Both the position numbers and the translations under genes were made by a program. This document shows, in pieces, positions 1,135 to 19,784 of a DNA stretch of 23,671 nt. Source of the stretch: a virus; IMG/VR virus record IMGVR_UViG_3300010883_000482, positions 1-23,671 of that record; one strand, given 5' to 3'. Numbering within the stretch: the stretch's first letter is position 1; every line of letters starts with the position of its first letter. The notes under the pieces are model-generated. The model was not told the origin of the DNA and ran no database searches. It saw only the letters and a list, made by a program, of their open reading frames with translations.

Positions 1135-3321
1135 TTACTTAGCGAAGTAGTAAGTCTTCCCTAGGGCATTGATCAAGTCAGGTAATGACTGACCATTGAT
1201 CTTTTGCATCTTACGTACTTCACCAAGAAGTCCTACTGTCATGAACTGTTTGATAGGAGTTACTGACTCTCCTTTCTTTAATTGAGCACAAGCACCAGCA
1301 AAGTATAATGCTAAGACATCAGTGCCCATTGGCAAATCCTTAGTCTTAATATTAGTACGAGAACCAAACAAGTCCATGTAAGCTAACTTGATAGCATTCT
1401 CTAATAGGTGCATCTCTGTCACATTCACTCGGAAACAGTCATGCACTGCTATGATGTGCTGAGCTCCAAGACGCTTTAGGTGTACAATGATCAACCTAGC
1501 TATCAAGGCATCAGTAGCTTGTATCATGTTAACAAAGCCATTACGTACGAAGTCACCAGTGTGTACCTCACGAGTCTTCAAACCCATTTGGATGAACTTG
1601 TAGGTATTGTTCTCAGTTGTTACTGTCACATCTGGACACACTGTATCATACTCTACAGCTTCGTTCAGGATGTTAACCTTCACTTTATAGTTCATAACTA
1701 CCTTTGCACCATCTGGCATTAGGTGAGAGATACGACCTTCAACCTTACCAGCAAACTCCTTGAATCTGCTTCTTACTGCAACCATCTTCTGACCAAACGA
1801 CTTAGTGATCGCTTTATGGAATCTTTTTGCAACGTCGTCATTAGCTACTCCGTCTGGATATAAAGTATCTACTATCACATCTAACTCATCTTCTTTCATA
1901 TCTTTTATGTTAGTGAATGCAGCCCAACCTTGACCGTAGAAGACGCCCATGAACGGCTTCTTAATGTCGTTACGGTTCTTCATAGTGAAGTTAAACCCAA
2001 CCTTAACCAGCTCTTTGATAGCTCTATGGTAAGCATCTTCCATCTCTACCATTGTGAAGCCACACGCGGCTGCTATCTCTTGATCTCCAGCTTGTAAAGC
2101 ACCTAACTGAGGACCTGAACATTTAGCATCAAGACCAACAGCCATTCCAATGTAAGGTCTTTTACCTTGATTCAAGTCGTTCCAGATGAAGGCAGCCTTA
2201 ACGAATGACCAAGGCTTAGCAGCATCACGATCTTTCTTCTTCTTAGCTAACTCACCTATTATGAAGTCAACAGGGTTATTCAAAGCCTTAACCATCAACT
2301 TACCTACCATGTTGGCAGGCACATTTACCATGTCCATCACTTCTGCTTTAATTACTTTCTTAACCTCGTTAACATCATAGTCTTGAGGTACTCCAGCCAA
2401 GTCCATCAATGCACGTGAACGATCACTTGCTTGACCATTTGGACCATGACAAGCTGCTTGGTAAGAACGTAGTCTTGAGTCGCCCTTGAACTCTGAACAG
2501 TAAGCCTGACCTGCTTCTAAGGCATTTGTTCCTGCAAGTACATAGCCTTCGTCATCGTTGTCCATTCCTAGTATTGTTTGTACTCTGTTGGCATAACCAA
2601 GCATACGTTCGTCTCGCATAAACTCACTAGACTCTTGAGCCTCGGTAGCCTCAATGAACAGTGGACTTGCTTGGCCTTTTTCTTTAGCATATAGTGGAAA
2701 CCTACGTGTCCAATCAGTGCCAGCCTTGTGTGGTGCATAAGCCTCAGTACGTTGCTCTAGCATCTCTACTAGCTTAGCTCCTATTGTCATATCATCATTC
2801 ATCAGGCCTATCTTAATCATAGCCTTCTCTAGCTTGTCCATGTCCATTACTGGAGTGTGAGGAGTCTTGGTGATACTACCATCTCCTGATACAGTCGACT
2901 CCAACTTGGCTGTTGATATGACGCTTCCTATTATTTCAAAGAACGCTTCTGGCATTCCTAGATTGTCCGAAAGCTCAATTGCATCAACAATTGCACAACC
3001 TGCAAGCACGCTTTGCATTGGACAACCCAATTCATGAAACAAGCTTGCCGTTATTGTGGAGCTTAAGCTGTTTACGTTTATCATGTCAGCTAACTTCAAT
3101 TCGTTTGACAAGTCAGTGCTTACTGATTCATCCAACACTTCTTGATCTTCGAAGCCCATGATGTCTTCCACATCTTGGTCTGTCAAGTCAGTTACTTGAT
3201 CAGTTGTTTCAGTGTTCATTGTTAACACCTCGATTGATGTTGCGTTGTCAGTAACATTGATAGCTTCAATGTTGTTTACTTTTGCACGGTTGATCATGTT
3301 GATTAAGTTAGTATTTGACAT
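1135..3321 (-). CDS. T7-type single-subunit DNA-directed RNA polymerase
   Basis: A 728-residue protein counted from ATG 3321, which has GAGAG before it; the frame is open further up only from a TTG and without a good site. Three family motifs are present in order: motif A at D398 (DAKCSGPQ), motif B with R450, K454, Y462 and G463 (spaced like T7 R627, K631, Y639), and motif C with HD at 627-628. A segment GDSRLRSYQAACHGPNGQ near residue 280 matches the T7 region DFRGRVYPVSxFNPQG. RNGFVNMIQATDA near 597 matches the T7 segment before motif C. It is about 150 residues shorter than T7 polymerase (883), mainly at the N-terminus, where T7 has promoter-recognition parts. It should transcribe phage genes from its own promoters, which are not identified here. 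Confidence 0.88.
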   Translation of the reverse strand: MSNTNLINMINRAKVNNIEAINVTDNATSIEVLTMNTETTDQVTDLTDQDVEDIMGFEDQEVLDESVSTDLSNELKLADMINVNSLSSTITASLFHELGCPMQSVLAGCAIVDAIELSDNLGMPEAFFEIIGSVISTAKLESTVSGDGSITKTPHTPVMDMDKLEKAMIKIGLMNDDMTIGAKLVEMLEQRTEAYAPHKAGTDWTRRFPLYAKEKGQASPLFIEATEAQESSEFMRDERMLGYANRVQTILGMDNDDEGYVLAGTNALEAGQAYCSEFKGDSRLRSYQAACHGPNGQASDRSRALMDLAGVPQDYDVNEVKKVIKAEVMDMVNVPANMVGKLMVKALNNPVDFIIGELAKKKKDRDAAKPWSFVKAAFIWNDLNQGKRPYIGMAVGLDAKCSGPQLGALQAGDQEIAAACGFTMVEMEDAYHRAIKELVKVGFNFTMKNRNDIKKPFMGVFYGQGWAAFTNIKDMKEDELDVIVDTLYPDGVANDDVAKRFHKAITKSFGQKMVAVRSRFKEFAGKVEGRISHLMPDGAKVVMNYKVKVNILNEAVEYDTVCPDVTVTTENNTYKFIQMGLKTREVHTGDFVRNGFVNMIQATDALIARLIIVHLKRLGAQHIIAVHDCFRVNVTEMHLLENAIKLAYMDLFGSRTNIKTKDLPMGTDVLALYFAGACAQLKKGESVTPIKQFMTVGLLGEVRKMQKINGQSLPDLINALGKTYYFAK

Positions 3322-3350
3322 AGTTATTCTCTCATTAATTAAAGTTAAGT
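3319..3350 (-). promoter_or_regulatory. Leader with ribosome binding site of the polymerase gene
   Basis: Before ATG 3321 the minus strand reads TTAATTAATGAGAGAATAAC. A close relative, AATTAAAGAGAATATCAC, precedes the 59-residue gene at 1072, and TTCTAAGAGAGAACAAC precedes the tail chaperone gene at 17725. The GAGAG part can serve as the ribosome binding site and fixes the start. The wider similarity, including AACTTAACT upstream in the first two, may mean a shared promoter or leader. Confidence 0.45.
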
Positions 3351-3362
3351 TACAGTATATAT

Positions 3363-3398
3363 TCACACACAAATGCACGCAAATAGTAAACAAGCCAT
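3363..3398 (-). CDS. Possible 11-residue leader peptide before the polymerase gene
   Basis: The minus strand carries AAAGGAG five bases before an ATG at 3398, the strongest ribosome binding site in this part of the window. The frame encodes MACLLFACICV and ends with TGA at 3363, about 40 bases before the polymerase start. The peptide is hydrophobic with three cysteines. It may be a translated leader that affects polymerase expression, or simply a decayed gene start. There is no hairpin pair that would prove attenuation. Confidence 0.35.
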   Translation of the reverse strand: MACLLFACICV

Positions 3399-11805: not shown

Positions 11806-11932
11806 AGTCCACCATTGCCAAGTAGCCATAGTGGTTCCTTGGGTTGGAGGATATGCTATTGTCTTTGAGTCCACCATTTCCCACCAACAGCCATAGTGAT
11901 TCCTTGGGTTGGGGGGTATGCTACTGTCTGGG
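11806..11932. repeat. Imperfect tandem duplication at the end of the hub gene
   Basis: Bases 11868-11932 (the last in-frame part of the hub gene) are repeated with changes at 11806-11867. Both copies encode the peptide AYPPTQG-x-TMA then WWT, but the second copy is in the -1 frame after the hub stop codon. Differences between the copies include synonymous third-position changes (TAC/TAT, CCC/CCT). Confidence 0.9.
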
Positions 11933-12842
11933 TCATCCAAGTACTATCCCAATTAGAGCCTTTGTGTTGTACTTGAGAGACTAGATACAAACTATTTCCT
12001 CCTATCTTTTCTGCTATAAAGTCTTTTGCTTGCTCTAGTACAGATTGATGGGAATCTACACCTATTGTAAGTAGGTTTGTTATATCTAAAATAGCAGAAG
12101 GTTTAATGTTTGTATCTAGGTTCGATACTACACTTATCTGACCTTTCCCAAGTTTTGGGTTAGATCTCATATTATCTGTAGATAACTTAACAGTACCAGC
12201 AGCATTGTAGAAATCAGTATTTTTTACATTAGCAAAGTTGGCCTTATACACAAATACAAACGTACTACTTTCTGTGTATATATTAAATCCATACTCCTCC
12301 CCAAGTCTTTCTAGCACACTACCTAGAGTCCCTTGTTCTCTGGACACTCTCCTATAGCTTGCATGAGATATTATATCATCTGGGAAGTGTTTGAACTCTG
12401 ATATACCATCAAACTTAGCAGCAGTTAGACATTGCTTAATAATCTTCTTTAAGTTAGGTTGTCTGGTTATAACATCTATATTTTTCTCCAAGTATAACTT
12501 ACGAAGTTTAGAGTAGCAGTACATAGTAAATATACTTTCTGGTACATTTATCTCCTCAAGTGAATTACTTATGTACAAGCTATTTATGACCGCCACTTTA
12601 GGAGACCCATGCAAAGATGTATACACAGTAACATAGGCATCTTGTGCATAGCTGATCTTATTTATAATTTTCGGTGATAGGTTAGTTAAAGTGATCTTAG
12701 CTCTTTCCCATCCTTTAATACTTCTTATATCAAAATCTATCTTAAGGCTATCAGTTTCAAACAGTGTCTTGCCATGTACCTTGCCATCCATCTCATGTAC
12801 TTTCAATAGTACATATTGCCCAAATTTACTAATCTTAGCCAT
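11856..12842 (-). CDS. Baseplate hub-like protein
   Basis: A 328-residue protein that starts in a TAATG overlap with the tape measure stop. By position (between the tape measure and Dit-like genes) and composition it resembles baseplate hub proteins of the gp27 / Mu P type. Residues 80-130 (ISNSLEEINVPESIFTMYCYS, then R-x-P-NLKKIIKQCL) and 175-210 (RVSREQGTLGSVLERLGEEYGF, then F-VFVYKANF) are the expected type of hub domains. The C-terminal peptide is duplicated downstream, out of frame (see the repeat). No hydrolase motif is seen. Confidence in the class is moderate. Confidence 0.65.
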   Translation of the reverse strand: MAKISKFGQYVLLKVHEMDGKVHGKTLFETDSLKIDFDIRSIKGWERAKITLTNLSPKIINKISYAQDAYVTVYTSLHGSPKVAVINSLYISNSLEEINVPESIFTMYCYSKLRKLYLEKNIDVITRQPNLKKIIKQCLTAAKFDGISEFKHFPDDIISHASYRRVSREQGTLGSVLERLGEEYGFNIYTESSTFVFVYKANFANVKNTDFYNAAGTVKLSTDNMRSNPKLGKGQISVVSNLDTNIKPSAILDITNLLTIGVDSHQSVLEQAKDFIAEKIGGNSLYLVSQVQHKGSNWDSTWMTQTVAYPPTQGITMAVGGKWWTQRQ

Positions 12843-15800
12843 TACTTATATCCTGCACTAGAGGTAGCTTCTTCATCTATATTCAAGTCACCATTTACGT
12901 TAGTAGTAGTCTTAATTAAGTCTGGTGAGATCTCATTTGTTACTTCTACGTTCACTATTGGGTTACTTGCACCTTGCTGTGAAGTTTGTGATGGCATATA
13001 ACCGATGTCAGAGCTAGGTACAACATCATCATCATCAGTTAGCCACTCCCACGCTTCATTAGCAACACCAACAGCAGCACCGCCAACACCACCAATAGCA
13101 CTACCGATCATAGCACCTGGAACTGCCCCAACACCAAAACCGAATGCTCCGATAGCTGCTCCGATAGCTGCACCACCAGAAGCTCCATAGGAAGCAAACT
13201 CCATTACATCTAATGCACTATCTGCAAGGCCTCCATCATCTTCAACTTCACCATAGTGTCTAATAGCCATAGGAGCTAAGCTTGTAGCCAATGCAACAGG
13301 TGTAACCTTAGCTCCTACACCTAATCCTTTAATAGCCGTAACCGCCTTATTAGAATTTTTCATAGCAGCATTAGCAGTTTTACTTGCAGCATTAGCAGTT
13401 ACATTTACAGTTGCATTAGTTGCATTCTTGACCATATTAGCTGTAGCTGGTCCAACAGTCTTAGCTTTACTTAAAAATGCCCCAGCTTTGCTAACTGCTG
13501 CTGGTATTTTAGGTGCTAGTAACCCACCAGTGAGAGAATTAGCTATGCCACCAATAGCAACCCCACCTGCTCCTAGTAAACCAGCTGTAAAGCCCATTGA
13601 GCCTACTGATTCTTTGCCATCCTGAATTAAGTTATCAATCAAATTAATACCAGTGTAAGCGTCTCTGGCTCCCTCTTTATTAATTGAGTGGTTTTCCGTA
13701 AGTAGGCTCATTGGGTCGCCATCAAATGCAGCTAAGTCTGGCATCCTCGCTAAGGTATTAGCTACGTAAGCTTTATCTTCTGGAGACATACCTACCATCT
13801 GAGTAGCCCAATAATGAGCAATCTGATTAGATTTCATCCCTTGAAACTCTACTGCTGATGGTAAGTTCATGGTAAGGACTGCTGTCCTGTTAGATAGGCT
13901 TTGCTCTTCGTGAAGCCGTCTAACTTCTTTTTCCGTATCTCTTTCATTGTTTAACGTCAAAGCTTGTCTTGCAGCAGACGTAAGTACACCTTCCGCTCCA
14001 GCTTTACTTAATCCACCTTTTGTAAGTGCTCTACGTGTACCGCGTAGCTCTTCTACGGATTGGCCAGTCTGGGCAGCCATCCTGATTTCATCCATAGCAC
14101 TTGTGTTACCACTTACTACAATACCACCTAGCTCTCCTAATACACCTGCCGCACTTCTTAATTCCTTACTAAATTCCTGCATACTCTTCGTCGCATCTTT
14201 AGTAGCTTTTGCTGAGTCTTTCTGTGCTTTTGCGTAGTAGTCTGACATGTTCTTGCTAGCATCATTATCCTCTGCATCTCCAAAGGCTGGCCTGTCATTA
14301 GTATTATTAAAAGCATTTTTGGCACTTGCCTGATCTTCCCCAGTTACAGGCTTCTTAATTTCTATATCACTGATAGGTAGTGTATCTGCTTTGAGACTTC
14401 TAAGCTGGGCATCACTCATATCGTTTAGCCTATTAGTCCTATCAGCTCTATCTACTCGTGTTGCGTGATTTAGTTTCTTCCTTTCTGTTATTACAGTATC
14501 AGATACTACATCCTCTGAGGGTAGGTCCTTACCGAAGAAGTCCATTTGCTCTGGTTCGCCACTAACAGAGAACATTTCTAACTGATCACTTTCACTATCT
14601 GAATCATCAAAAGGAGTCATAGGGACTTCTTTGTCATCTGTATCTTCACTAAATGCTTTAGAATGCACACCGTTCTTAGCATCTACATTGGACTTAGACT
14701 TAGCCTTATCAGCCTTAGCCTTAACCTTATCAGCAGCTTTCTTAATTCTTGCTTCTTCTCGCGCTATCTTTCTTTCTGCTTTTCTGTTTGTAATATTGTT
14801 TCTCAAGGCTTGTACTCCTCTGTAGTCTAAGTCTTCTGACATATCCAGTGCAGCCTCACCAGCCGCTAGTAATTCAGCTTGCATAGCTGGGTCAGCTTCT
14901 ATTAGCTTATACACGTATTCGTCAGTCTGTTTGTCAAGTGCGTAGAAGTGTGTTTCTTTCTCACCAGCAATGGCCATCTGCATTTGCACTTGTGGTGTAT
15001 ATGTCTTAATAGCTTCATCCATACCACCAGAACCTAAGAACTTAACCTCCAACAATCCAGCACTTTGCCTAGGTCCAACAAAGTTCTCCTCGTCTGAGCT
15101 TGTGCCATGATACATCCTACCATCCGGAGACACACCAAAGCCTTCGTGATTTGGATTAGTTTCAAAGAAAGCTTCCTTGAAAGTTAGGCCTCTCCCGTGC
15201 TTTGCCATAAAAGCTTTAACTGCTTTTGCTTCTCCTTCATTCCCCTCACGAGTGTCGGAGTTGCCCTCAAACTTCTTCTTCTCCCCAAGCCTTTCCTCAG
15301 CTAGGGCTAGTGCTCTCTCTTCAATACCATCTACTGCTAATAGTCCAGCAGCAGCAGAGGCAGTAATCTTACCCTCACGTAGTCTTAACCAAGCATCTGT
15401 ACCCTGCTTTATGTCACCACTAGTGTCGATCTTCTTCTCTTCCTCTTCTTCACGAGCTTTTTCTACAAAGATTTGCTGTTCTGACATTATGCTGTTTCCG
15501 TAGAACCCACCTCTCTCTGAGCCTCCTACATCCACTGTCTCTTGCATCAATCCAGACTGGTATATATTAGGTCCAACATTAGTAGGCCCAAACTCTAGCC
15601 TTTCTTGGTATGCCTTCCTCTCTCTTGCGTTATGAGCTTCCGCAGATACAAGTACTTTCTTAGTTACTCTAGTCTCTGAGTCAACAGCAGCACCCCAATC
15701 TTTGTCCTGTTCGGCAGCTAGGTTGCGAATGTTTTCCGTATCACTTTGTTCACCTGTTAGACTTACAGTACTAAGCTGACTCTTAAACACAGCACTAGCT

Positions 15801-17116
15801 TTGTGGGCTGCTTTAATGTCAAGCTTCATTTTCATCTTATTGTCTTCTGCCATACCTTCCATCTCACTAGCACTAAGACTTTTCTTCTCTGCCTTAGTTA
15901 GTGGGACGTTATATATGGAGTTGTACAGTGAGGGAGTTCCACGCAATACCGCTTTCCTCTGTTCTTCTGTTACTCCTTTCTTGAATACCTTATGTCCTTT
16001 TTTATTCCTAATGAACTTGGTTTTCTGCCCATCCATGAATGTCTCATACAAGTCGTTGTACTTACTGGCTGATAGTCTGTCCTCAGCAGTACCTTGATTT
16101 GTCACACCTTTCCAGATACCTTGAGTACGCTTTATTCCCAACACACCAGTCTCGTTAGGTAGGGCTAGTATGTTACTAGTATTGAATCCCCACTTGCCAT
16201 CCCTAAGCCTTCCAGTTATTGAACTCTCTAGGGCTTCACGCCTAGCTCCCTCTACCTTAGTACCAATAGTGTTTGGGTGTATGTACCTATTTGCCAACCT
16301 CTTTACAGTTGCAATAGAATCATACATCTCTTTATCAGCTTTCTCTTGCTTAGTAAAGTTTTGGTGGTGGTTCTCTAATTTACCTCCAGGTCCTTTATCT
16401 ATGTACTCACCAGCAGTATTCTGCAACATAGACACAACTGTTCTAAGGTCTTGATTCGACCTAGGTAGTGGGACTTCTGCCGCGTTAAACCCATCTATAT
16501 TTATTAGGTTAGCAAACTGTGACGGCTCCATTCCTGTCATCTCAGCGAACGACTCGCGAGCTGCCATTGCATCTATACGACCAATACCCTCTACAGGTTG
16601 CTCGTTTAATACTGCCTTAATTCCGGCTGCTATCTTGGGGTCTACTCCTTCTATCCTACCAAGTTGTAAGGTAGCTATGGTAGCACCACCCATTAGGTGC
16701 GTTGGATGGTTTAGGTCTGCCTCACCTTGGGAGATTTTGTAAGCTAACTGTTCATCAAGTGGTCCTGTACCTCTTTCTCCATAGCTTCCTAGCCAGTTAT
16801 CAATCGTGCGATCACTTGCTTTTCCTCCTAGGTAGTTTAGTATGTCTTCCTTATGCTCACCCCTTAGTCCATCTAGTGTTTGCCTGATTGGGGTATCTCC
16901 CCACCTAATACCACTCCTAAATTGTTGGTTAGGGGTTTTGGTAGAATCCATTTCTCTAAAGAATGCGTCAGCCGCAGCATCCTCTTCTGAGCTTCCTAGT
17001 GCTTCAGCTAAGCTCTCATGTATCGTTAGCCCAGCAAGTGATTCTCCTTGCTCATTTTCTTCCCAACTATTAATTGGGTCCTCGTGCTCATTGTCTTGTA
17101 TTGAATCATCCCACAT
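12842..17116 (-). CDS. Tail tape measure protein with embedded YqaJ-type exonuclease
   Basis: A 1424-residue protein after the tail chaperones, with AAGGAGTAAGAT before its ATG. Residues 1-550 are unrecognised, mixed charged and helical. Residues 555-565 form a Glu/Lys-rich linker. Residues 565-755 are a YqaJ/lambda-exonuclease-like nuclease domain (see separate entry). Residues 770-810 are very basic. Residues 825-865 are acidic and hold QLEMF (845-849) and QMDFF (857-861), like sliding-clamp binding motifs. Residues 960-1150 are helical and tape-measure-like. Two Gly/Ala-rich hydrophobic segments follow (about 1173-1203 and 1310-1352), as expected of tape measures, which cross the inner membrane. 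The end (NVEVTNEISPDLIKT) is typical of this protein class. It sets tail length and is ejected with the genome. An embedded nuclease is very unusual; the tape measure assignment itself is firm by position. Confidence 0.88.
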   Translation of the reverse strand: MWDDSIQDNEHEDPINSWEENEQGESLAGLTIHESLAEALGSSEEDAAADAFFREMDSTKTPNQQFRSGIRWGDTPIRQTLDGLRGEHKEDILNYLGGKASDRTIDNWLGSYGERGTGPLDEQLAYKISQGEADLNHPTHLMGGATIATLQLGRIEGVDPKIAAGIKAVLNEQPVEGIGRIDAMAARESFAEMTGMEPSQFANLINIDGFNAAEVPLPRSNQDLRTVVSMLQNTAGEYIDKGPGGKLENHHQNFTKQEKADKEMYDSIATVKRLANRYIHPNTIGTKVEGARREALESSITGRLRDGKWGFNTSNILALPNETGVLGIKRTQGIWKGVTNQGTAEDRLSASKYNDLYETFMDGQKTKFIRNKKGHKVFKKGVTEEQRKAVLRGTPSLYNSIYNVPLTKAEKKSLSASEMEGMAEDNKMKMKLDIKAAHKASAVFKSQLSTVSLTGEQSDTENIRNLAAEQDKDWGAAVDSETRVTKKVLVSAEAHNARERKAYQERLEFGPTNVGPNIYQSGLMQETVDVGGSERGGFYGNSIMSEQQIFVEKAREEEEEKKIDTSGDIKQGTDAWLRLREGKITASAAAGLLAVDGIEERALALAEERLGEKKKFEGNSDTREGNEGEAKAVKAFMAKHGRGLTFKEAFFETNPNHEGFGVSPDGRMYHGTSSDEENFVGPRQSAGLLEVKFLGSGGMDEAIKTYTPQVQMQMAIAGEKETHFYALDKQTDEYVYKLIEADPAMQAELLAAGEAALDMSEDLDYRGVQALRNNITNRKAERKIAREEARIKKAADKVKAKADKAKSKSNVDAKNGVHSKAFSEDTDDKEVPMTPFDDSDSESDQLEMFSVSGEPEQMDFFGKDLPSEDVVSDTVITERKKLNHATRVDRADRTNRLNDMSDAQLRSLKADTLPISDIEIKKPVTGEDQASAKNAFNNTNDRPAFGDAEDNDASKNMSDYYAKAQKDSAKATKDATKSMQEFSKELRSAAGVLGELGGIVVSGNTSAMDEIRMAAQTGQSVEELRGTRRALTKGGLSKAGAEGVLTSAARQALTLNNERDTEKEVRRLHEEQSLSNRTAVLTMNLPSAVEFQGMKSNQIAHYWATQMVGMSPEDKAYVANTLARMPDLAAFDGDPMSLLTENHSINKEGARDAYTGINLIDNLIQDGKESVGSMGFTAGLLGAGGVAIGGIANSLTGGLLAPKIPAAVSKAGAFLSKAKTVGPATANMVKNATNATVNVTANAASKTANAAMKNSNKAVTAIKGLGVGAKVTPVALATSLAPMAIRHYGEVEDDGGLADSALDVMEFASYGASGGAAIGAAIGAFGFGVGAVPGAMIGSAIGGVGGAAVGVANEAWEWLTDDDDVVPSSDIGYMPSQTSQQGASNPIVNVEVTNEISPDLIKTTTNVNGDLNIDEEATSSAGYK
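14852..15424 (-). other. YqaJ/lambda exonuclease-like domain inside the tape measure gene
   Basis: Codons for residues 565-755. Aligned by eye with lambda exonuclease, all key parts are present: GTDAWLRLREGKITAS (572-587), the opening motif; E629 in the helix after GNEG, matching lambda E85; SPDG with D665, matching D119; GLLEVK with E690 and K692, matching E129 and K131; and YTPQVQMQM (706-714), matching YMAQVQYSM. The metal-binding and catalytic set is intact, so the domain is predicted to be active. In free-standing form this family degrades one strand of duplex DNA and pairs with a recombinase; no partner gene is in this window. Confidence 0.9.
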
Positions 17117-17126
17117 ATCTTACTCC

Positions 17127-17321
17127 TTAGTCGCCTCCATTAGAACTAGGAGGTACCATGTGCTTTTTAATTTCTAGGATTTGGTGAAACATTTCCAGAT
17201 CGTATATAGTATAGGTTCCGTCTTGTAACTCTTTTAAGGTACAAAGCGGAGGATTTACTAACAAAGGTTTTACTAAGTACCCGTTTAGCATAGGATAAAT
17301 CTTGCTATAATCAACAGGCAT
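17127..17321 (-). CDS. Tail assembly chaperone extension (T part of a G-T fusion)
   Basis: An open frame of 64 codons from an ATG at 17321, in the -1 frame relative to the 127-residue gene upstream and open without a stop all the way back to the slippery site at 17381. The ATG itself has only a weak site (GTGAG) so I think it is made as an extension: about 115 residues of the first gene, 20 residues from the region in between, then these 64, giving about 199. It has no recognised domain, as is usual for the T part (lambda gpGT, for instance). It ends 10 bases before the tape measure start. Confidence 0.75.
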   Translation of the reverse strand: MPVDYSKIYPMLNGYLVKPLLVNPPLCTLKELQDGTYTIYDLEMFHQILEIKKHMVPPSSNGGD

Positions 17322-17334
17322 ACTAGTTTGCTCA

Positions 17335-17387
17335 CCAGAGATTACTGCTCTGGAGAGGGTTCCTTTGCTAAACCTAAGCTGAAAAAA
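17335..17387 (-). promoter_or_regulatory. Programmed -1 frameshift signal
   Basis: The slippery heptamer T TTT TTC (17381-17387) is in the right phase in the 127-residue gene: GAT TTT TTC. Slipping by one base enters the frame of the downstream 64-codon part. About 27 bases further on is a small hairpin, CCAGAG-CAGTAAT-CTCTGG (17335-17353), which holds the normal stop codon in its loop. The spacing is longer than usual for a stimulating structure. No other stop interrupts the shifted frame. Confidence 0.75.
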
Positions 17388-17725
17388 TCAGCATACTGGT
17401 TATGAATTACATGAGCAAATAATTCTATTACTAAGTGTAAGGCACCCATAAACATATCATCTATTGTACCAGATTCTATCTTCTTATTATCAATTCGTAC
17501 TTGACATACAAAATGTCTTATCATAGCTGAGGCTCGTTTGGGGTCTGCACACTCCATCACTGCCACAACAGCAGCAGCTACATTTAACTCAGAGATACGG
17601 ATTACGCTCTCTGAGCTTAGTAGTTTACCTACCAAAGACAAGTTTTCTAATGCTACTGCTACAGGCCAGTTTGGTATGTATATTTCTTGGCCACTTTTTA
17701 GTGTGCCACTATATGATTCTTTCAT
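17342..17725 (-). CDS. Tail assembly chaperone (G part)
   Basis: A 127-residue protein between tail tube and tape measure. It is mostly helical after residue 25, with MECADPKRASAMIRHFVCQV and the C-terminal helix FMGALHLVIELFAHVIHNQYADFF. Position and size fit the chaperone that coats the tape measure protein during tail assembly. The slippery T TTT TTC lies at D113-F115. The gene begins after a strong terminator, with GAGAG as ribosome binding site, so it needs readthrough or its own promoter. Confidence 0.78.
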   Translation of the reverse strand: MKESYSGTLKSGQEIYIPNWPVAVALENLSLVGKLLSSESVIRISELNVAAAVVAVMECADPKRASAMIRHFVCQVRIDNKKIESGTIDDMFMGALHLVIELFAHVIHNQYADFFSLGLAKEPSPEQ

Positions 17726-17794: not shown

Positions 17795-18289
17795 TTATAC
17801 TTGTGCGCCGAGGTTTGAAGAGTCATCGCCAATATTACGACGAATATCTATGTTCTCAAAAGTAAGAACCCAATTAACAGTGTTCATGGTTTGTCCACGA
17901 GAGATAGCTGGGATTGCTAAAATTACACCATTGTCTAGGGTTGCCTCATCCTTACCCATGTTGTCTTTCATCTTAGCCTGAATAGGGTAGATTAACACCC
18001 CATCTTTATCTGCCTGATCTTGAAAGTAGTTGCAGTAGTCCTGCAAAATCTTGTTCTCAGGAGCATTCATTAGAACTGGGAAGGTTAAGTCACCAGCCTT
18101 AATACGTTGCATTGATACAACCATATCACCATACGCACCAAACTGGGTGGTAGCGATAGGTGCTCTACGTGCAATGTTAATCAGGTTCTCACCTGTGCCA
18201 AAACCTGTAACGAATACAGGTGTGTAAGTACCAGTTGAGTCTGGTACTTGAAGTATAAGGTCAACATTGGCAAAACTATATTGATACAT
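17795..18289 (-). CDS. Tail tube protein (DUF3277-like)
   Basis: A 164-residue protein directly after the sheath gene. The start YQYSFANVDLILQVP and the middle GENLINIARRAPIATTQFGAYGDMVVSMQR fit the DUF3277 tail tube family, which goes with DUF3383 sheaths. Such proteins stack as hexamers to form the inner tube. A terminator follows immediately, in line with its need in large amounts. The gap to the sheath gene is only 19 bases. Confidence 0.85.
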   Translation of the reverse strand: MYQYSFANVDLILQVPDSTGTYTPVFVTGFGTGENLINIARRAPIATTQFGAYGDMVVSMQRIKAGDLTFPVLMNAPENKILQDYCNYFQDQADKDGVLIYPIQAKMKDNMGKDEATLDNGVILAIPAISRGQTMNTVNWVLTFENIDIRRNIGDDSSNLGAQV

Positions 18290-18308: not shown

Positions 18309-19784
18309 TTAAGCGAATGTGCCATTAACGACAACATCATGTAAAGCACCAGCACCAACCATTCTAAATGATAAGCCTGCGTATAAGCGGTTGTCTTTGT
18401 CACTTGACGGCACATCAGCAATTGGTATTGCGGTAATGTCATAACCATCAGGAAGGTAGGTACCATCTTTTAAGTAGCCTGAACCTGCTAGGCCGTTATT
18501 AACAGCAGCTTTTAAGCTACGTTCCAGAGTTGCCTCAGTTACGTTAATACCTGCCTGTGTGTAAGGTAGCTTAGTTGGAGTTTGGTATAGTAAGTTAAAC
18601 ATATCAACTTCACAACGATTTTCTAACCATAACAAACCGTGAGTAGTATCAAACCATGAACCATTGCCCATACGAGAATCTGAGTAAGCATTGACTGTCT
18701 TACCGATACGTACAACAGCAGAACCGTTCTTAGCACGTAAGTTAGCGAACTCACCAGGAGTTAGGTCTTCGGCAGTGATGGTAGGGATTTGCTTCAAGTT
18801 CAAAGTAATCGTAGTTGAAACCCCTGAGAAGTTTACAGAGGCAGCTCGACCAAACACAGCAGCAGATGGGTACTGTGCTGCATCTTTACTGAAAGTACTT
18901 AGTGTAAAGCGTAAAGTCTTACCCATACATAACGAGATGATGTCAGATTTATCCTCTTTATCCAAAACTCCTAAGTCATTAGAGGTGTTGCAGAAAATCT
19001 TCTTAGCACCCTCAGCCCAGCTAGCTATATCTAGCGTAGTATTGCCAGTACTACCAGACAATACATCACGGTACTTCTTGTGAGTAACTAAGCCAGTAAA
19101 CTCAACACCTGTTGCAATAATCTTACCTAGTGCTTGTACTGGAGTTTCAGCAGCAAGGCCAGCAGATATTTTACCTTGATGCTGCCCTAGACCAAGAGCA
19201 CTAGCAGCATCACTATCACCTATACCAGTTGAGCCATCAGCAAAAGAGATTGTTGATGCAATACCAGATACTACTGACTTGACTTGGAAACCGTGGCCAG
19301 TATGCGTCACTTCTACTGTAGGTGAACTTCCTGAATTGATTGCTGAACCTAGTTCTACAGCAATCGCATCAAAACCACCCTCAGTAGTTACGCCAGAGAA
19401 GTCAAGGTCAGCAATAGAAGTTGTTGTACCATCAACTGTAATTGCAAAGTTGCCATCGGTAATACTGATAAGCTCTGCGATAGTGTCATGACCACCACCA
19501 GATAATGTTGCTTTTTGTTCTGCCTCGAAGCACATGAATACTACGAAGTCAGTTGGAGTAGGGGTAGCAGCATAGAAAGATATAGCAGCTTTAACTACTT
19601 CACTGTCATCGTCCCAATCTAATTGTACTCCTGCAAGGCTGGAATATGCACGACTACGTTCAGCCGAACCAATAACTCCTTCCTCCATTGTTAGGAATCC
19701 TAGGATGCCGAAGTCACCACCAGCTACACCAGAAGGTGATACTGAAATGGATACGTTAGCAAATTCTGTGATTTCAATTGCCAT
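18309..19784 (-). CDS. Contractile tail sheath protein (DUF3383)
   Basis: A 491-residue protein of the DUF3383 sheath family. It starts MAIEITEFANVSISVSPSGV with the expected strand arrangement, then FGILGFLT, and later shows TVNAYSDSRMGNGSWFDTTHGL followed by DMFNLLYQTPTKLPYTQAG, a typical sheath core stretch, and ends in RLYAGLSFRMVGAGALHDV. It contracts to drive the tube through the host envelope. The genes before it code for the neck and after it for the tube, the normal order. Confidence 0.92.
   Translation of the reverse strand: MAIEITEFANVSISVSPSGVAGGDFGILGFLTMEEGVIGSAERSRAYSSLAGVQLDWDDDSEVVKAAISFYAATPTPTDFVVFMCFEAEQKATLSGGGHDTIAELISITDGNFAITVDGTTTSIADLDFSGVTTEGGFDAIAVELGSAINSGSSPTVEVTHTGHGFQVKSVVSGIASTISFADGSTGIGDSDAASALGLGQHQGKISAGLAAETPVQALGKIIATGVEFTGLVTHKKYRDVLSGSTGNTTLDIASWAEGAKKIFCNTSNDLGVLDKEDKSDIISLCMGKTLRFTLSTFSKDAAQYPSAAVFGRAASVNFSGVSTTITLNLKQIPTITAEDLTPGEFANLRAKNGSAVVRIGKTVNAYSDSRMGNGSWFDTTHGLLWLENRCEVDMFNLLYQTPTKLPYTQAGINVTEATLERSLKAAVNNGLAGSGYLKDGTYLPDGYDITAIPIADVPSSDKDNRLYAGLSFRMVGAGALHDVVVNGTFA

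Follow-up and report, generated by a model that had tools for sequence, protein, structure and literature searches.

The tape measure protein of Chaseviridae and uncultured relatives carries an intact lambda-type exonuclease domain, suggesting a DNA-end-trimming enzyme delivered alongside the genome

Results

The window, that is, the whole stretch of viral DNA analysed here (23.7 kb), encodes a tail module of the contractile type together with a single-subunit RNA polymerase that is T7-like; all features described below lie on its minus strand. The tail genes follow in the order sheath, tube, chaperone, tape measure and hub. The tail sheath (18309–19784) matches PHROG 205 with E 7.7e-90 and is about 41% identical to sheaths of Chaseviridae, subfamily Nefertitivirinae. 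The tail tube protein (17795–18289) matches PHROG 280, a virion structural protein family, and the gene at the same position in the relative L025 is annotated as tail tube. Within the gene of the tail assembly chaperone (17342–17725, G-like product; PHROG 11820, E 2.6e-14), comparison with relatives predicts a −1 frameshift at the heptamer TTTTTTC (17381–17387). Reading in the shifted frame extends the product by 84 residues, and this GT-like form ends with a stop at 17127, just ahead of the tape measure start. Heptamer and extension (83–95 residues) are found in 12 of 13 phages compared, the window included, and in nearly all of these the extension reaches the start of the tape measure gene. 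As judged from the sequence, the predicted chaperone pair is the G/GT arrangement of phage lambda. The chaperone of L004 (L004:11067–11447) is the only one of the 13 that does not contain the TTTTTTC slip site.

The RNA polymerase (1135–3393; PHROG 414, E 1.9e-27), a hallmark of Chaseviridae, has its best matches among the RNA polymerases of this family. Its open reading frame is listed from a TTG codon and an internal ATG at MSNTNLINM looks like the better start. Polymerase and syntenic tail module together identify the window as part of a Chaseviridae-like myovirus. In a tree of the nuclease domain described below, it groups in a third clade, separate from the two cultured subfamilies of Chaseviridae and so far without a cultured member; the branches of this tree are very long and do not separate a single from a multiple origin of the domain fusion.

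The open reading frame between chaperone and baseplate hub (11856–12842; PHROG 196, E 1.2e-15) spans 12842–17116 and encodes 1424 residues. Several features mark it as the tape measure gene: its neighbours are a G/GT chaperone with a slip site on one side and the hub on the other, an SLT transglycosylase domain is found at the C-terminus of the same chain in Cleopatravirinae (Fifi44, flopper), and a helical stalk as well as Gly-rich hydrophobic segments are predicted towards the C-terminus. The two metagenomic tape measures L084 and L085 group with Cleopatravirinae, and L084 likewise has an SLT domain. A full-length model of the homologous tape measure from L034 (1193 residues, mean pLDDT 66) shows an N-terminal helical region (residues 55–400, pLDDT about 80–94), a disordered link, the nuclease (about 470–672), a second disordered link and a stalk (784–1001), while its C-terminal part is poorly predicted. 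Transferred to the window by alignment, the N-terminal helical globular region corresponds to approximately residues 125–480 (15677–16744) and the stalk to approximately residues 956–1173 (13598–14251). A structure search with the N-terminal region of the L034 model matched no known fold. Residues 1174–1192 and 1267–1352 (within 13061–13597) are Gly-rich and, according to their hydropathy, a candidate membrane-inserting region. The tail of the cultured relative 4HA13 measures 116.5 nm, equivalent to about 777 helical residues versus the 1204 residues of its tape measure protein; the excess could be globular parts, a comparison that is suggestive only.

The middle of this protein resembles lambda exonuclease. 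The earlier note had located a complete YqaJ-type exonuclease at 14852–15424, which indeed corresponds to residues 565–755 of the tape measure frame. Pfam PF09588 (YqaJ) matches residues 576–719 (14960–15391) with E 6.8e-12 and 46.3 bits (cut-off 22), PHROG 434 (RecE-like exonuclease) covers residues 554–806 (14699–15457) with E 2.8e-15, and NCBIfam TIGR03033 of the lambda-exonuclease family matches residues 568–727 with E 1.8e-10, which lies under its trusted cut-off. A profile built from nine such domains of relatives (A1) and searched against all PDB chains retrieved LHK-Exo (3SYY, E 7e-15) and lambda exonuclease (1AVQ, E 6e-5). The AlphaFold2 model of the window domain (pLDDT 82, pTM 0.79) had its best Foldseek matches in LHK-Exo (3syy, E 2.1e-10) and the lambda exonuclease complex (3sm4, E 1.2e-8) with TM scores of 0.65–0.76, so that profile and fold searches agree on the identity that the note had read from motifs. 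Nothing relevant was matched in a library of defence proteins.

The PD-(D/E)XK core is present with its E, D and E-x-K residues and the downstream Q motif, at the positions given in the note. W576 and R580 form the W...R motif (15377–15391), E629 is the metal-site glutamate (15230–15232), D665 belongs to SPDG (15122–15124), E690 and K692 to LLEVK (15041–15049), and Q709, Q711 and M714 to QVQMQM (14975–14992). From alignments and general knowledge of the enzyme, we take R580, E629, D665, E690, K692 and the Q motif to be the equivalents of R28, E85, D119, E129, K131 and the Q157 region of lambda exonuclease. The 1424-residue protein thus embeds a complete lambda-exonuclease domain that looks competent for catalysis.

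Across 51 distinct full-length tape measures, only W576, R580, G625, E629, D665, E690, K692, Q709, Q711, M714 and G1018 (window numbering) are strictly invariant. Ten of these 11 residues lie inside the YqaJ domain and include the whole predicted active site; the remaining tape measure shows a column conservation of only about 20–40%. For pairs where it could be estimated, dN/dS of the domain was 0.035–0.10. A protein serving purely as a ruler would not keep these residues, and the full invariance of the active site indicates that catalysis is under selection. The embedding of the domain in a structural protein would be in line with a non-catalytic role, that is, mere DNA binding or shaping of the tail, but an active site that is conserved in all 51 proteins within such a variable chain makes this very improbable.

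Relatives were found with the sheath, the hub and the domain alignment as queries. Searches with the whole protein, by tblastn and by peptide scans, returned none because the rest of the tape measure diverges fast. The domain alignment retrieved 61 metagenomic viral loci. In 53 of them the domain lies inside a long open reading frame (1131–1723 residues where complete, the others being cut by the contig end) and eight encode free-standing proteins of 187–211 residues. A scan of 19 Chaseviridae or Chaseviridae-like records gave a single YqaJ match in each, always in the tape measure gene, and a second YqaJ gene was found in none of them. Bacterial genome contigs searched with the domain alignment yielded no relatives, which is consistent with lytic phages. 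The domain of flopper matches 219 phage records; among the matches listed, those outside Chaseviridae are labelled as recombination protein or exonuclease, or carry no label. The few of them that we inspected are separate proteins, and two adjoin RecT or Erf.

The records of Spp001 (L014) and pAh6-C (L022) hold the tape measure gene in two to three open reading frames, split at or near the nuclease, which may reflect sequencing errors. Such splits could be taken as a sign that the fusion is a misassembly, and the resemblance to lambda exonuclease might be fortuitous. This reading was rejected and its probability is negligible, as the same fusion recurs in dozens of assemblies and isolates of independent origin, and as profile, fold and motifs agree. 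None of the three outcomes that would have spoken against the note's proposal was therefore observed: the YqaJ match is present, the catalytic residues are retained in relatives, and the frame is genuine.

A homologue of the window protein is present in purified virions. Particles of the Escherichia phage 4HA13 (Chaseviridae) banded twice in CsCl yielded 15 proteins by LC-MS/MS with at least 50% coverage, and the "tail tape measure protein" is second in the list of proteins with high-abundance peptides shown (PMC9699118). This protein, AC4HA13_0067 (1204 residues), contains the domain (E 3.2e-13) with an intact active site. Published mass spectrometry thus places in the virion a tape measure protein of a relative, one whose sequence includes the exonuclease domain; the earlier note had suggested to look for it there.

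Tail proteins are made in the cell before assembly, and lambda exonuclease itself normally acts in the cell. The nuclease might accordingly act in the producing cell, for example in recombination, in the processing of concatemers, in the destruction of superinfecting DNA prior to assembly, or on the genome end held by the tail. Against this, the gene is a late structural gene of the tail operon and its product ends up in the particle (4HA13), whereas the free-standing relatives, of which few were inspected, reside in early recombination operons beside RecT or ERF. Release of a free domain by internal initiation is not indicated either: no pair of ribosome site and start codon was found within 130 codons upstream of the domain in the 13 genes searched, a set without L004. 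We therefore regard an action in the producing cell as unlikely.

Chaseviridae genomes are linear, 52–56 kb long and have direct terminal repeats of about 3 kb (ICTV profile). Where the ends of Chaseviridae-type genomes are determined, the repeats span 2.7–3.4 kb, i.e. 3120 bp in 4HA13, 3202 bp in Myduc and 3234 bp in Mangalitsa; the ZPAH14 record holds both copies (3373 bp, identical). A near-complete relative from the clade of the window (G003, 56.5 kb) has a terminal repeat of 2688 bp with 99.8% identity. Four other long contigs checked for end repeats gave 113–177 bp in two cases and none in the other two, which may reflect their assembly.

RecT, ERF and Rad52 (PF03837, PF04404, PF04098) were detected in none of 15 records, and an annealing protein of an unrecognised type is possible. 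A protein of 260–289 residues encoded beside the DNA polymerase is conserved in Chaseviridae (L025:18775–19638 and homologues) and belongs to PHROG 862/6599, to which no function is assigned; in size it would be compatible with an annealing protein that has escaped recognition. The "recombinase" of VPs20 (L028:21816–23711) was considered as a partner and rejected, since it matches ribonucleotide reductase and is likely misannotated. Chaseviridae also encode a separate flap-type 5'-3' exonuclease (PHROG 107). A RecBCD inhibitor of the T7 gp5.9 type is present in all five Cleopatravirinae scanned (W04, W05, W12, W13 and W14) and besides in the metagenomic relative G009; scans of Nefertitivirinae and window-clade records found none. 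Its presence in all five Cleopatravirinae suggests that DNA ends and RecBCD matter to these phages.

Discussion

Contractile-tailed Chaseviridae and their uncultured relatives possess a tail ruler with an intact lambda-type exonuclease, which suggests that an enzyme for trimming DNA ends is delivered alongside the genome. Tape measure proteins are ejected at infection and hence the domain would reach the periplasm or cytoplasm together with the DNA. Enzymes of the lambda-exonuclease class require a free end of double-stranded DNA. The ends of the phage genome are those available and would thus be the likely substrate. An intact circular chromosome has no such end, and a partner endonuclease would be needed for the nuclease to degrade host DNA. 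Injected nucleases do exist in related machines, such as Tme (PMC11126660), but the requirement for a free end makes a takeover of the host by degradation of host or rival DNA improbable. Among the roles that the earlier note had put forward, the processing of phage ends fits best, and an attack on the DNA of the host or of rivals is a poor fit.

The proposed course of events would be as follows. The tape measure would be assembled into the tail lumen, as the mass spectrometry of the homologue suggests, and upon contraction it would be ejected with its C-terminus first. The Gly-rich hydrophobic segments, in Cleopatravirinae together with the transglycosylase domain, may then open the envelope, and the nuclease would come next, reaching the entry site together with the DNA end or shortly before it. 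There it would resect the 5' strands at the ends of the linear phage genome itself, so that the complementary 3' single strands of the 2.7–3.4 kb terminal repeats could anneal and give rise to a circle or concatemer. At the same time, blunt ends would become long overhangs on which RecBCD would not load. We infer the ejection order, the activity and the substrate, and give even odds (a probability of about 0.5) that the ejected exonuclease resects the incoming ends of its own genome, thereby aiding the annealing of the repeats and hiding the ends from RecBCD. That this recombination-type exonuclease is delivered by the tail, resects the ends on entry, ahead of all gene expression, and serves both circularisation via the terminal repeats and escape from RecBCD seems slightly less probable than even.

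The odds are not higher because an annealing protein was not detected and because another 5'-3' exonuclease is encoded. As neither RecT, ERF nor Rad52 was detected, annealing would need a single-strand binding protein of the phage, a host protein or a protein that is not recognised as such. The PHROG 107 exonuclease could resect the ends after its expression, and an exonuclease at the entry site could harm the genome if nothing held it in check. To our knowledge, some other terminally repetitive phages, T7 and T5 among them, do without an exonuclease in the virion, which likewise counts against end resection.

RecBCD needs nearly blunt DNA ends. The nuclease could hence serve to disguise the ends only, with long 3' overhangs or capped ends blocking the loading of RecBCD and no part in joining the repeats. 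The failure to detect an annealing protein agrees with this, as does the finding that the Nefertitivirinae and window-clade records scanned yielded no gp5.9-type inhibitor, so that other protection may be needed. On the other hand, Cleopatravirinae carry both gp5.9 and the nuclease, and the terminal repeats are long and conserved. We consider disguise of the ends possible but doubtful, about as much so as an action in the producing cell, and favour resection that also prepares the repeats for annealing.

In sequence profile, in fold and in having a complete active site, the domain agrees with the lambda exonuclease/YqaJ family (1AVQ, LHK-Exo 3SYY, RecE). The members known so far are stand-alone proteins of early recombination, as a rule encoded beside an annealing protein, whereas the domain described here is located inside a late virion protein. 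In Red and RecET the exonuclease is paired with an annealing protein, unlike in Chaseviridae where none of the three types searched for was detected. Enzyme-bearing tape measures such as that of mycobacteriophage TM4 with its peptidoglycan hydrolase motif, or those with SLT domains, deliver an enzyme at infection, but these enzymes cut peptidoglycan and not DNA. Closest in concept is Tme, an endonuclease effector related to tape measures from a contractile injection system of Streptomyces davawensis (PMC11126660). The two have in common that a nuclease domain is part of a tape-measure-like protein and is loaded with it into a contractile apparatus; Tme differs in that its nuclease is a C-terminal EndA-like endonuclease of another fold and in that its apparatus is an injection system of bacteria rather than a phage. 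Injected multidomain "polyvalent" phage proteins also bring enzymes into the cell along with the DNA, but they are not tape measures, and no tape measure with a YqaJ domain is mentioned there (PMC7824862).

The earlier note knew of no described phage with this arrangement. The fusion proves to be the rule in Chaseviridae and some GenBank records do read "exonuclease" or "tape measure", but we found no paper that discusses it. Direct homologues of the window protein are the tape measures of 4HA13, PP101, Mangalitsa and SSEM1 as well as the "exonuclease" of ZPAH14, and the YqaJ domain was confirmed in 4HA13, ZPAH14 and the other records scanned. Labels of the homologues in GenBank range from tail fibre, virion structural protein and putative endonuclease to exonuclease and tape measure. 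Full-text searches of the open-licence literature returned no paper with both Chaseviridae and YqaJ. We also came across none that reports a YqaJ domain embedded in a tape measure or that links the two labels "exonuclease" and "tape measure", and no description of a virion-borne step of DNA-end processing for any phage.

If the proposal holds true, phage tails would deliver DNA-processing chemistry with the genome, while the tape measure enzymes known so far cut the cell wall. This would matter for the question of how linear, terminally repetitive phage genomes persist and form circles at the very start of infection. Cultured phages of E. coli and Erwinia that are already in collections allow the proposal to be tested. 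The identification also corrects the inconsistent labels (tail fibre, exonuclease, endonuclease, tape measure) given to this protein across a whole virus family.

Between the tape measures of phiEcoM-GJ1 (L092) and flopper (L016), approximately residues 150–700, comprising the N-terminal domain and the nuclease, are strongly divergent with near-identical flanks, and from these sequences the middle block seems to have been exchanged as a cassette. ZPAH14 and LA93P1 show a weaker, mostly synonymous version of this divergence.
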